Assembly: GCA_002699585.1 (NCBI GenBank)
Contig: PABP01000038.1
Location: forward strand, 248,001-312,000
Reading direction: 5' to 3'
Length of the DNA stretch: 64,000 nt
Origin: Anaerolineaceae bacterium
GTDB taxonomy: Bacteria > Chloroflexota > Anaerolineae > Aggregatilineales > Phototrophicaceae
In this document: positions 35,252 through 39,108 of the stretch, in pieces
Numbering within the stretch: the stretch's first letter is position 1
Layout of the letters: each line of letters opens with the position of its first letter
Made by a program: the position numbers and the translations under genes
The notes under the pieces: generated by a model
Database searches by the model: none
Told to the model about the DNA's origin: nothing
Seen by the model: the letters and a program-made list of their open reading frames with translations, nothing else

Positions 35252-35638
35252 TTATTTCTTGCCCGCACCACGCCGACGGCCACGACCTGGAACCGTCTTC
35301 TTGACGCCGCGGCGCGTACGTGCGTTGGTACGTGTACGCTGGCCACGGGCCGGCAAATTACGACGATGGCGCAAACCACGATAAGCGCCAATTTCCATCA
35401 GGCGCTTGATGTTAAGCTGAACCTGACGACGCAGGTCACCTTCTGTAGTGATACCGCCGATCATCTCGCGGATACCCTGTAACTCAGATTCCGACAGATC
35501 ACGCACACGGGTCGTGGGATCAACGCCAGTCTGGTCCAGAATATTCTTGCTGGTTGTGCGACCAATACCATAGATATAGGTCAGCGCAATCTCAACCTGT
35601 TTATCACGAGGCAGATCGACACCTTCAATACGAGCCAC
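35252..35638 (-). CDS. rpsM: 30S ribosomal protein S13
   Basis: 128 aa. Starts [20 protein letters not shown] with [15 protein letters not shown] basic tail ending [11 protein letters not shown] contacts tRNA. Follows rpmJ by 35 bp. Confidence 0.97.
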
Positions 35639-35673: not shown

Positions 35674-35790
35674 CTAACCCTGCACCTGCTTGTGCTTGGG
35701 ATACTTGGAGCAGATAATCATGACCCGCCCCTTGCGCTTGATTACACGGCAAGCCGAGCAACGGCGCTTAATCGATGTAGATACTTTCAT
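35674..35790 (-). CDS. rpmJ: 50S ribosomal protein L36
   Basis: 38 aa. Minus-strand frame from ATG 35788-35790 to TAG 35674-35676: [16 protein letters not shown] at the start and YPKHKQVQG at the end. The zinc ligands are Cys11, Cys14, Cys27 and His33. Leads the alpha operon, with a predicted promoter at 35828-35856. infA, its usual upstream partner, is not here. Confidence 0.95.
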
Positions 35791-35827: not shown

Positions 35828-35856
35828 ATGCTAGCAAATATACATAAATCTGTCTA
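35828..35856 (-). promoter_or_regulatory. Predicted promoter for the rpmJ-rpsM-rpsK-rpoA operon
   Basis: On the minus strand TAGACA (35851-35856), exactly 17 nt, then TAGCAT (35828-35833) preceded by TGC. The start codon is about 38 nt past the -10. It lies between the S33 hydrolase and rpmJ. Confidence 0.5.
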
Positions 35857-35967
35857 CGGTGATTTTGTGCAAACTACCATTACGAGGGCACAAAAAAATG
35901 AACGGCAACACCCAGCCGCGCCCATAAAGATAACAGATTTGGTAACCGCTGTGTAGGGTAAATTGCC

Positions 35968-37425
35968 CTATCCAGGCAGCGACCAGGTCAGTTTTTGCCC
36001 AGCGCAGGTGGTATCGAGCGGTGCAAGCGGGTCTCGCAGGAAGCGCATGGTAATGGCGGTCGCACAATCCAGGCGATTAATCATGCCATGTGCGCCACTT
36101 TCAAAAAATACGTACTGGCTGTTGGGCAAAGTTTCCGCAGCGGATTGTGCCCACTCCGGCGGCGTAATCGGGTCAAAGCGTCCACTTAATAACAAAACCG
36201 GCATGTCACTGACGATCGGCTGATGCGCGTCGAGATTAGCAGGAGGCACGTCCCACTCAATGCAGGAGGCAAACTGCCCGCGCAAGCTATGACGCAGCGG
36301 TTCTGCAACTTCAACTCGTACCTGGCCATCACCGCGCAAGATACTCTCAATATGATCCGAAGGGATTTCTTCCTGGCACTGGATGCTCATATAGAGGCCG
36401 TCGCTCAGTGGAATATAAGCCCCGGTAGGCAAATCCTCTGAGTAGCCGAAATAGGCATCAAAGACGCTGTAGTCGCCTTCAATGAGCTGTGACAGTGTCG
36501 CTGGCAGCGAGGGGATGCCCTGGGTGTCGTAAAGCCACTGAATCAGCATATCTATCAACACGGCATCATCAAAGTAAAAACTCTGGCCTGTGAATGGGAT
36601 TTCGTATGCGGCGGGACTGTTGTTGAGCCGTGCCAACCAGATATAGAAATCATCTTCCAGGTCCGGGAAAGCTGCCTGACAGGCGGCATCTTCATAGCAA
36701 GCAGCGAACAAGGCATCAATCGAGCGTTGGGCCGCAGGCAGGCGGCCATCATACACGCTGGCTTGCACCGGATACACAGAATCCAGCACCAGCGCACGGA
36801 TCGTCTCTGGATAGTCGCGCATGACAGCCGACCCCAGGCGCGTGCCATAAGATATGCCAATGAGGTTCACAGGTGGCAGCCCCATCTGGACGACCAGATC
36901 ATGGATGTCAGCGGCATTTTCGCGGGTATTATAAGCAGCCAGTTCCACACCCGCCGAGCGCAAGCGCTCCGCACAGGATTTCACTGGCAAATTCACATAC
37001 TGTTGGAACTCCGAGCATAGCAAATTCGGTGTTGTTAGGGCCGTGCCGCGCTGTTCAATGAGGATAATGTCGTGGAACAAGCGCAAAGGCGATGTCCGCC
37101 AGAAATCCAGTTCAGCAATGGCGCTACCCCCTGGCCCACCCGATAAATAAACAATTGGGGCCTGATCGGTCGCACCAGAAGCCTTTAGAGTCAGGACAGG
37201 CAGTCGGATCGTGCGACCATCGAATGTCTGTCGGTTCTGCGGCACAGTCAGCACGCCACATTCATACGTCTCGCCTGCTGTTTCTGCACTCATATCAAAT
37301 AGACTGACCTCTTCAGGACAATCAGCGGACCGATACGAGGACTGTTGAGCAGCGATTGTGCTGATGCCTAAGACATAACACCAACACAGCAATATTAAGA
37401 CACGAACGCTAAATACTCTGGTCAT
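35968..37425 (-). CDS. Exported alpha/beta hydrolase, S33/TAP-like peptidase
   Basis: 485 aa. An N-terminal signal peptide (VFSVRVLILLCWCYVLGIST) precedes an alpha/beta hydrolase with a TAP-like C-terminal region. Features are the oxyanion VYLSGGPGGSAIAEL, the nucleophile elbow GISYGTRLG, the acid in LLLSGRFDPITPPEWA, and the catalytic His in SGAHGMINR. Resembles tripeptidyl/prolyl aminopeptidases acting outside the membrane. It starts inside the map stop codon (ATGA overlap), so it is translationally coupled to methionine aminopeptidase, deep in a ribosomal protein cluster. That location is unusual. Six Cys pairs suggest disulfides. Confidence 0.88.
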   Translation of the reverse strand: MTRVFSVRVLILLCWCYVLGISTIAAQQSSYRSADCPEEVSLFDMSAETAGETYECGVLTVPQNRQTFDGRTIRLPVLTLKASGATDQAPIVYLSGGPGGSAIAELDFWRTSPLRLFHDIILIEQRGTALTTPNLLCSEFQQYVNLPVKSCAERLRSAGVELAAYNTRENAADIHDLVVQMGLPPVNLIGISYGTRLGSAVMRDYPETIRALVLDSVYPVQASVYDGRLPAAQRSIDALFAACYEDAACQAAFPDLEDDFYIWLARLNNSPAAYEIPFTGQSFYFDDAVLIDMLIQWLYDTQGIPSLPATLSQLIEGDYSVFDAYFGYSEDLPTGAYIPLSDGLYMSIQCQEEIPSDHIESILRGDGQVRVEVAEPLRHSLRGQFASCIEWDVPPANLDAHQPIVSDMPVLLLSGRFDPITPPEWAQSAAETLPNSQYVFFESGAHGMINRLDCATAITMRFLRDPLAPLDTTCAGQKLTWSLPG

Positions 37426-38228
37426 GGTAGGGTCAGTATCATCGGCTCGCCTTCGGTGACGGCAATGGTATGCTCGGTATGCGCATTGAGCGACCCATCT
37501 CTAGTGACGACGGTCCAGCCGTCGTCCAGTTCCATCAGGTCATTGCGTCCCATGATAAGCATGGGTTCGATAGCGAAGGTCATACCGGGCTGCAGTTCGT
37601 AGTCTACAGGTCCGCGCATATTGGGTTTGAGGCGGCGCGGCCACCAGTTCGGCACCTGGGGAGCCTCGTGCATGGCCTTGCCGACACCATGCCCAGTATA
37701 TTCCGAGGCGACGCTGTAGCCGTGTTGGGCGGCATATTTGCTGGTCAGGCGGGCGATGTCACTGATGTGATTGCCCGGTACACACAGCTTAATCGCTTCC
37801 GCCAGGGTTTCTTCCGTGACGCGCAGCAAGCGCTCCACCATTGGCGACACCTCGCCCACGCCAGCCGTATAGGCCGCATCACCGACATAACCTTTATGGA
37901 AACAGGCGACATCAATACCGACGATGTCACCCTCTTCCAGAATGCGATCTTCACGCGGAATGCCATGCACCAACTCGTTATTGACTGACGCCGTGATCGT
38001 CGCCGGGAACGGCGGGTGGTTGCCGGGTGCATAGTCCAGAAAAGCGGGGATGGCCCCATGATCGCGAATGATTGTTTCCGCAATGGTATCCAGCTCTTTT
38101 GTGGAGACACCAGGGCGCAGCGCGGCACGGGTCGTCGCCAGCACTTCCGCGACGATCTGTCCGGCTTCGCGCATGATGGCGATCTCTTCCGGCGTTTTTA
38201 AAATGATTTCTGGTGCTTGGCTTGGCAT
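37422..38228 (-). CDS. map: Methionine aminopeptidase, type I
   Basis: 268 aa. Removes the initiator Met. The five metal ligands are in place: Asp in GIDVACFHKGYVGDAA, Asp in the same block, His in GHGVGKAMHEAP, Glu in FAIEPMLI, and Glu in TEHTIAVTEGEP. AGGA 7 nt upstream supports the ATG. Follows adk by 45 bp, the conserved adk-map order. Confidence 0.96.
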   Translation of the reverse strand: MPSQAPEIILKTPEEIAIMREAGQIVAEVLATTRAALRPGVSTKELDTIAETIIRDHGAIPAFLDYAPGNHPPFPATITASVNNELVHGIPREDRILEEGDIVGIDVACFHKGYVGDAAYTAGVGEVSPMVERLLRVTEETLAEAIKLCVPGNHISDIARLTSKYAAQHGYSVASEYTGHGVGKAMHEAPQVPNWWPRRLKPNMRGPVDYELQPGMTFAIEPMLIMGRNDLMELDDGWTVVTRDGSLNAHTEHTIAVTEGEPMILTLP

Positions 38229-38273: not shown

Positions 38274-38975
38274 TTATTTAACAGCGTCGATGATGGATTC
38301 AATATCAGATCGTACGGCTTCAATCGATTGGTCGGCATTAACGCGCTGGACGATACCCTTGGCATCATAGTATTCGATAAGCGGTTGGGTCGCTTCGATG
38401 TAGGTATCAATGCGCTTGATAACAGCGGCAGCATTGGCATCATCCGGGCGGCGTTGCAGTTCGACGCCATCTTTGAGGGCCACCAATCGCGGCGGGTATG
38501 TCCCGGACGGATCATCATCGTAATGATAGGTGACGCCTTCGTTGTTGTAATAGATGTTGTAAGTCTCATCAGAATCTGACGCTTTGACGCGGCCAAAGGC
38601 ACGCTTAAAGGCCACATAGTGATCAAGTTCGAGCAGCAGCACGGCGTTGACCGTCTCGTCTTTTTTCTCAAGGAAGTTAGCTAAGAACTCCGCCTGCGGG
38701 ATGTTACGCGGGTAGCCATCGAGAATAACACCATCCTGGGCATCTGGCTGTGATAGGCGGTCCGCGACGACTTCGTTGGTTGTGTCATCGTCAATCAGGC
38801 GCCCCTCAGCCATGATTTGCTGGACGCGCTGTGCCAGTTCATCTTCACGGGTCCGCATCGCCCGGAAGAGATCGCCCGTCGATACATGTGGTATCTGGTG
38901 GGATTCACTAATTTGGGCCGCTTGCATGCCTTTGCCCGCGCCCTGCACACCCATAAAGATCAGGTACAAACCCAT
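38274..38975 (-). CDS. adk: Adenylate kinase, divergent P-loop and LID
   Basis: 233 aa. Converts ATP plus AMP to 2 ADP. The P-loop is GVQGAGKGMQAAQ, where most bacteria have GKGTQ. The AMP site TGDLFRAMRT and DGYPRNIPQAEFL are present. The LID (about 130-175) is long and acidic (ASDSDETYNIYYNNEG), lacks zinc Cys, and ends RRPDDANAA before a normal C-terminus. GGAGA 7 nt upstream sets the start. A terminator and an 8-bp inverted repeat lie before it, so it may be transcribed apart from secY. Confidence 0.9.
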   Translation of the reverse strand: MGLYLIFMGVQGAGKGMQAAQISESHQIPHVSTGDLFRAMRTREDELAQRVQQIMAEGRLIDDDTTNEVVADRLSQPDAQDGVILDGYPRNIPQAEFLANFLEKKDETVNAVLLLELDHYVAFKRAFGRVKASDSDETYNIYYNNEGVTYHYDDDPSGTYPPRLVALKDGVELQRRPDDANAAAVIKRIDTYIEATQPLIEYYDAKGIVQRVNADQSIEAVRSDIESIIDAVK

Positions 38976-39015: not shown

Positions 39016-39059
39016 GTCCGGTTCACTTTAGTTTGAACATTATTTCACAGAAACCGGAC
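39016..39059. promoter_or_regulatory. 8-bp inverted repeat in the adk upstream region
   Basis: GTCCGGTT (39016-39023) and AACCGGAC (39052-39059), 28-nt spacer. A second short repeat GTTCA/TGAAC lies inside. No clear -35/-10 within it. Could be an operator or an RNA leader hairpin of the adk-map transcript. Confidence 0.4.
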
Positions 39060-39064
39060 TTAAA

Positions 39065-39108
39065 CAAAAAACGAGGACGTACAGTCTGATCTATACGCCT
39101 CGTTTTTG
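39065..39108 (-). terminator. Bidirectional-looking terminator after secY
   Basis: Stem ACGAGG-A-CGTA (39071-39081) / TACGCCTCGT (39094-39103) flanked by A6 and T5 runs. Lies 65 nt past the secY stop, between secY and adk. Confidence 0.75.

Follow-up and report, generated by a model that had tools for sequence, protein, structure and literature searches.

What is a gene for a putative exported hydrolase doing inside a near-universal cluster of ribosomal protein genes, directly behind the gene for methionine aminopeptidase? The question arises from a 64-kb stretch of DNA (the window, whose genome is designated G000 and whose coordinates are used throughout), in which the genes of the block all lie on the minus strand in the order secY, adk, map, hyd, rpmJ, rpsM, rpsK, rpoA, rplQ. 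Models were used to check adk (adenylate kinase, 38274-38975; TIGR01351, 183.3 bits against a cut-off of 168), map close behind it (type I methionine aminopeptidase of 268 residues, 37422-38228; TIGR00500, 276.5 bits against 171.35; Peptidase_M24), and rpmJ (35674-35790; TIGR01022, 57.4 bits against 22.7). The genes secY (40501-39173), rpsM (S13, 35252-35638, with homologues behind rpmJ in relatives), rpsK, rpoA, and rplQ were named by recognition of their translated reading frames. The hydrolase gene, hyd (35968-37425, 485 residues), passes the Pfam cut-offs for both PF08386 (Abhydrolase_4, "TAP-like"; 58.3 bits, cut-off 21) and PF00561 (Abhydrolase_1; 55.8 bits, cut-off 25.8), and its start codon ATG shares the bases ATGA (37425-37422) with the map stop codon TGA. 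This bears out the first-pass annotation, which had reported a gene for an exported S33 TAP-like hydrolase starting within that stop codon.

Published work (PMC3087516) gives the common order of the cluster as infA, L36, S13, S11, S4, rpoA, L17, and describes Gammaproteobacteria and Magnetococcus as being without infA nearby. Compared with this infA-rpmJ-rpsM-rpsK-rpsD-rpoA-rplQ arrangement behind map, the window keeps map, rpmJ, rpsM, rpsK, rpoA, and rplQ in order, but infA and rpsD are elsewhere in the genome and hyd separates map from rpmJ. The rpsD gene (S4) lies at G000:C5:172056-172664, away from the ribosomal block and not in the rpsK-rpoA gap; infA lies at G000:C23:370231-370434; both are thus on different contigs from the block. 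An infA query found no copy in 41 loci of the family or in 20 further stretches, and in the 88 genomes of the order with matches to both genes, infA and map are on different contigs in 86 and far apart in 2 (G067 and G007; judged by eye). Since infA lies elsewhere across the order, hyd did not displace it; replacement of infA by hyd is likewise rejected because the query found infA in none of these 61 loci and because in 15 of the 41 family loci rpmJ follows map closely, with neither an intact hyd nor infA. The absence of infA from this site is wider than the presence of the hydrolase and would be older.

The linkage described in the window extends well beyond it. The order map-hyd-rpmJ is present in 21 genomes (the window and 20 others) from three genera of one family, f1, which appears to be Phototrophicaceae, and these 20 further genomes rule out a strain-specific insertion. 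The bearers comprise two genomes of genus g1, 18 of g7, and one of g12 (G113, in which about 1.1 kb with an opposite-strand reading frame separates hyd from rpmJ); a second g12 genome, G075, has hyd before rpmJ, with map on another contig. Tight linkage to map is common to the other genera as well, the hyd start falling -4 to +18 bases from the map stop in 18 of the 21. The other g1 genome, G067, is apparently Phototrophicus methaneseepsis ZRK33, a species that the NCBI taxonomy places in Chloroflexota, Ca. Thermofontia, Phototrophicales. We take its GTDB class to be Anaerolineae. In a sample of 101 genomes of the order, of which 95 have a match to map (E<=1e-60) and 71 to the hydrolase (E<=1e-20), a same-strand hydrolase gene next to map was found, among the matches listed, in 20 genomes, namely both of g1 and 18 of the 20 of g7 (tables compared by eye), and, again among the matches listed, in none of the other sampled genera or families. 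A class-wide search gave hydrolase matches at E<=1e-70 in 4 of 150 genomes, the window's own included, at a cut-off that would miss most divergence of the g7 kind, many g7 copies scoring weaker, so that a hydrolase next to map may also occur elsewhere in the class. The match in G009, from the same family, is a copy that is not at map, and the stretches around those in G232 and G251 (the latter with just 319 bases upstream) contain neither map nor rpmJ. A scan of relatives by name returned seven loci, all of them Phyllobacterium paralogues. No account of a map-hydrolase pair was met in the literature surveyed, which dealt with related topics and was not searched for the pair by name.

Within the family the junction is variable. 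A search gave 52 map orthologues, of which 41 loci were read (40 and the window). In 11 of these hyd is present; in 15, rpmJ follows map closely, after a gap of at most 402 bases; in 3, other genes occupy the junction; and in 12, rpmJ is absent from the stretch read, some stretches ending early. Seven of the remaining 11 were seen in shorter form, six with rpmJ following map and the hydrolase absent, and one (G115) uninformative, as it stops 420 bases past map; the other four lay outside the comparison. The map/rpmJ junction thus looks like a hotspot of change within the family. At two loci (L081 and L082, from G028 and G058), map is followed by a reading frame of more than 1100 codons whose start resembles a Ser/Thr protein kinase by eye. 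Among the twenty additional stretches, L145, L146, and L148-L152 have rpsM close after map with no rpmJ detected between; these are 7 of 9 genomes from the order's other families.

The explanation favored here, and considered probable, is that hyd was inserted at the seam between map and rpmJ, joined an adk-map unit as its final gene, and encodes an exported enzyme that is useful but dispensable. In a clade within f1, a gene for a TAP-like serine hydrolase would have entered, probably in a single early event, after the map stop codon and before a pre-existing promoter of the rpmJ-rpsM-rpsK-rpoA operon. Across seven close pairs, dN/dS (calculated with our own NG86 script) is 0.21-0.40 for hyd and 0.03-0.09 for map; the pair G000-G067, the eighth, was saturated. 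Along with the shared gene order in 20 further genomes and the invariant residues described below, the hyd values mark the arrangement as more than chance. Judged from these ratios, hyd is under purifying selection and evolves much faster than map; this pace and its loss in several lineages are what would mark it as dispensable. It is quite possible, if not the preferred view, that hyd is a chance passenger: the junction, lying between units and prone to rearrangement, would collect genes, and hyd would have no functional reason to be there. The mixed contents of the 41 family loci and the several losses of hyd speak for this; the retention of hyd in place across 21 genomes, in 18 of them with its start -4 to +18 bases from the map stop, and the purifying selection on it speak against. 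The two accounts may overlap, in that hyd could be useful and yet its position accidental.

What the enzyme does must be judged from its relatives. The N-terminus of the hyd product is hydrophobic with an end resembling a signal peptidase site, and residues 1-26 (37348-37425; TIAA|QQ), read by eye, form a putative Sec signal peptide. Ser192 (GISYG; codon 36850-36852), Asp418 (GRFDP; 36172-36174), and His446 (GAHG; 36088-36090), which from the family motif we take to be the catalytic triad with Ser192 as the nucleophile, are unchanged, together with ten cysteines, in all 21 map-adjacent copies, and the triad is also present in all seven rows of a second alignment (the window and six Phyllobacterium relatives). 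Among solved structures, the best relatives are entries for Hip1 (Rv2224c; PDB 7sfm and 5ugq; of the MEROPS S33 tripeptidyl-peptidase/Hip1 cluster), which match at E 1e-33 in a profile search, while a sequence search aligns Hip1 with hyd residues 56-451 (E 3e-16). Hip1 chains are also the top Foldseek matches (E 5e-9, TM 0.53) of a hyd model that is itself poor (pLDDT 54, pTM 0.61). Hip1 resembles hyd in this sequence and profile match and, by motif, in its Ser-Asp-His triad; it differs in being only about 20% identical in the fold alignment with the poor model, and in that hyd is linked to map (gene context was compared on the hyd side alone). Streptomyces has tripeptidyl aminopeptidases, listed in PMC5994538 as secreted by Sec, which by that description share with hyd the TAP type and its putative Sec export. 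A second copy of hyd, 36% identical, is present elsewhere in G000.

The best guess, drawn from family membership, is that hyd encodes an exported peptidase. It is possible, if somewhat doubtful, that this TAP-fold enzyme is instead an esterase or some other non-peptidase. According to PMC11878206, most members of S33 are not genuine peptidases, and hyd falls below the cut-off of every curated NCBIfam model scored; a prolyl aminopeptidase was rejected at 32.0 of 259.75 bits for TIGR01249 and 29.5 of 167.65 bits for TIGR01250. In addition, the profile search aligns TnmK1 (8e18, "secreted hydrolase") at E 2e-8 over positions 44-435, almost the whole protein, and the fold search with the poor model also lists TnmK1, TnmK2, and esterases. 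However, the best full-length matches are the Hip1 entries, and PMC11878206 also places Hip1 with the tripeptidyl-peptidases, in one of the three clusters that it recognizes as genuine peptidases within S33. Under the favored explanation, the product would be exported via Sec, would fold with disulfides (as the ten invariant cysteines suggest), and would most likely trim short peptides off N-termini, or hydrolyze related small substrates, outside the membrane.

The history of the gene can be followed in two trees and in what is left at the site. In a species tree made with FastTree from adk, map, S13, S11, and RpoA (61 rows, 21 of which miss one or more genes; drawn without support values), all bearers of hyd fall in one clade, which also takes in G077, G110, G069, G075, G063, and G082; in its sister pair, G100 and G044, rpmJ is close behind map. 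Between map and rpmJ, G069 (g10) has N- and C-terminal remnants of the hydrolase (CPF...CGTLYMLPNRQ near the start, GYGAID..DSCA near the end), G063 has C-terminal pieces (...FEFYIGQDE at the end), and G082, a relative of G063, has a trace of a few hydrolase residues, all read by eye. The simplest reading, and the one that fits best, is one early gain followed by later losses. In the hydrolase tree (42 rows, comprising the 21 adjacent copies and 21 others, with long frames trimmed to their last 490 residues), the g7 copies form one group and the two g1 rows pair, while G113 groups with the copies of G077 and G075, away from g1 and g7, so that g12 may have gained hyd separately. (The G075 copy, counted among the others, adjoins rpmJ, so its grouping with G113 is consistent with a position common to g12.) Nevertheless, it is rather unlikely that the junction gained hyd two or more times, once for g1 and g7 together and again for g12. 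A tree in which all adjacent copies are forced into one clade is 19 log units worse, which favors separate gains, but the AU test does not reject it (p 0.131), the species tree sets g10, g12, and g13 inside the clade of bearers, and the remnants in G069 (g10) also weigh against separate gains.

The transcription of hyd was addressed by taking the best σ70 site (extended -10 included) of each stretch and comparing its score with those from 300 dinucleotide shuffles. A promoter-like site precedes rpmJ at p<0.05 in 37 of 39 related genomes (these are non-independent, and combined p-values overstate the result), including all 21 with hyd and 16 of the 18 without intact hyd, the other two being at p 0.053 and 0.086. 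(In these 18, rpmJ lies no more than 420 bases from map; the remnant-bearing G063, G082, and G069 are among them, as are two genomes of other families.) Control gaps, scored with 150 shuffles, reached p<0.05 in 2 of 47 cases for rpsM-rpsK and 0 of 33 for adk-map. The site in the window, TAGACA-17-TGnTAGCAT (35828-35856), has p=0.013, and the aligned site in G067 has p=0.003. Thirteen of the 18 genomes without intact hyd have TAGAC(A/G/T) as the first hexamer, with a spacing of 17 bases to the second, and most have the site shortly after the map stop; G000 and G067 resemble them with TAGACA 37-39 bases before rpmJ. The g7 site differs in sequence (TTTACA or similar, a spacing of 16-17 bases, and TGnTACAAT or similar) and in place, being farther from rpmJ and near the hyd stop, so the same pre-existing promoter can be claimed for g1 only. 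No promoter was found directly before hyd in any of the 21 genomes (last 150 bases of map and 20 bases more). Of the two results that the first-pass annotation had named as speaking against it, an insertion confined to this strain and separate transcription from a promoter belonging to hyd, sequence analysis on this scale thus turned up neither.

The gaps on either side of the adk-map-hyd stretch contain candidate terminators. After secY there is a predicted intrinsic terminator (39069-39105), a hairpin of -19.4 kcal/mol followed by a T run. A hairpin and T run occur in 7 of the 16 secY-adk gaps scanned (G000, G067, G110, G071, G075, G087, and G103; a seventeenth gap, the 25 bases of G096, was below scannable size), and the G067 hairpin (-19.7) is different from that of G000. 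The best promoter-like site before adk is a weak one, TTGTTT-17-TGnAATAAT (39039-39067; score 10, no significance figure). An inverted repeat (GTCCGGTT...AACCGGAC) lies across it at 39016-39059 and, by eye, is not evident in G067. Between hyd and rpmJ, a terminator-like hairpin with a T run is present in 4 of the 21 genomes with hyd (G000, at 35892-35919 with -10.0 kcal/mol, G067, G094, and G083, which include both g1 genomes). It looks conserved between G000 and G067 only, in which the T run can be aligned together with its flanks; with a candidate terminator in just these four, read-through into rpmJ is possible in g7. Upstream of this hairpin, a second extended -10-like site (35927-35955, TACACA-17-TGnTATCTT), kept by eye in G000 and G067, would start a transcript just before it. 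A known RNA leader was rejected: the sole Rfam match over 33-41 kb (E up to 5), to a snoRNA, scores 15.9 bits where 40 are required and was taken as chance.

Taken together, the transcription unit here is likely to be adk-map-hyd, with adk as its first gene and hyd transcribed along with adk and map. The first-pass annotation had placed hyd inside the ribosomal protein block and linked it to genes under growth-rate control. The placement stands for gene order; for transcription it does not, as one predicted transcription unit ends there and the next begins. Given the promoter-like site at rpmJ, with which the downstream ribosomal unit would begin, and the terminator-like hairpin before rpmJ in 4 of the 21 genomes, hyd is predicted not to belong to that unit. 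Membership in the upstream ribosomal operon is doubtful as well, because in both G000 and G067 a strong predicted terminator separates secY from adk. It is therefore unlikely that hyd is a working member of a ribosomal operon, read through from the spc operon and set at a growth-rate-controlled level, even though the genes from adk on are on the same strand and tightly spaced, 9 of the 16 secY-adk gaps scanned have no terminator, and none was found before rpmJ in 17 of the 21 genomes with hyd. That the clade has wired external peptide scavenging to map, making adk-map-hyd a growth-linked peptide-salvage operon in which the harvest of outside peptides follows the demand for new protein, is a long shot. 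There is no sign of shared chemistry between hyd and methionine aminopeptidase; their link appears to be one of expression. Under the seam explanation, a near-universal gene cluster can host a lineage-specific, dispensable, exported enzyme where two transcription units meet: the added gene would be expressed from upstream, and the essential ribosomal operon would keep its own promoter. The predicted units are directly testable in P. methaneseepsis ZRK33 (presumed to be G067), for which PMC8941918 reports a closed genome and deposited RNA reads.

At the level of translation, the start of hyd (picked mechanically as the first in-frame ATG, GTG, or TTG near the map stop) is at -4 relative to the map stop in 4 of the 21 genomes (G000, G067, G071, and G097), at 0 to +18 in 14, and at +35 to +65 in 3. 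In G000, anti-Shine-Dalgarno pairing before hyd is absent, the best value being +0.3 kcal/mol; of 11 other genes of the block, 9 pair at -4.4 or better, with rpmJ at -2.7 and rplO at -1.8. Shine-Dalgarno pairing is not strong in any of the four genomes where map and hyd overlap (+0.7 to -2.7); among the 17 without overlap it is -4.9 or better in 7 and weaker in 10. In two published studies, coupling was nearly abolished by gaps of about 20 nt (PMC10666635) and 13 of 14 overlapping pairs tested were strictly coupled (PMC6728339). The ATGA termination-reinitiation pairs described there resemble map-hyd of G000 in having a 4-base overlap and no Shine-Dalgarno pairing; they differ from map-hyd of the relatives, 17 of the 21 genomes being without overlap. 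Strict translational coupling of hyd to map is thus plausible in G000, where the ATGA and the missing Shine-Dalgarno pairing suggest that hyd is translated by ribosomes just ending map. With the overlap present in only 4 of 21 genomes, strict coupling is probably not general in the clade. At the map stop of three loci (L075, L077, and L141, from G039, G065, and G089), ATAA is found where the g7 relatives G071 and G097 have GTGA; this would make ATA the overlapping start, and the first usual start is 17-38 bases farther on.
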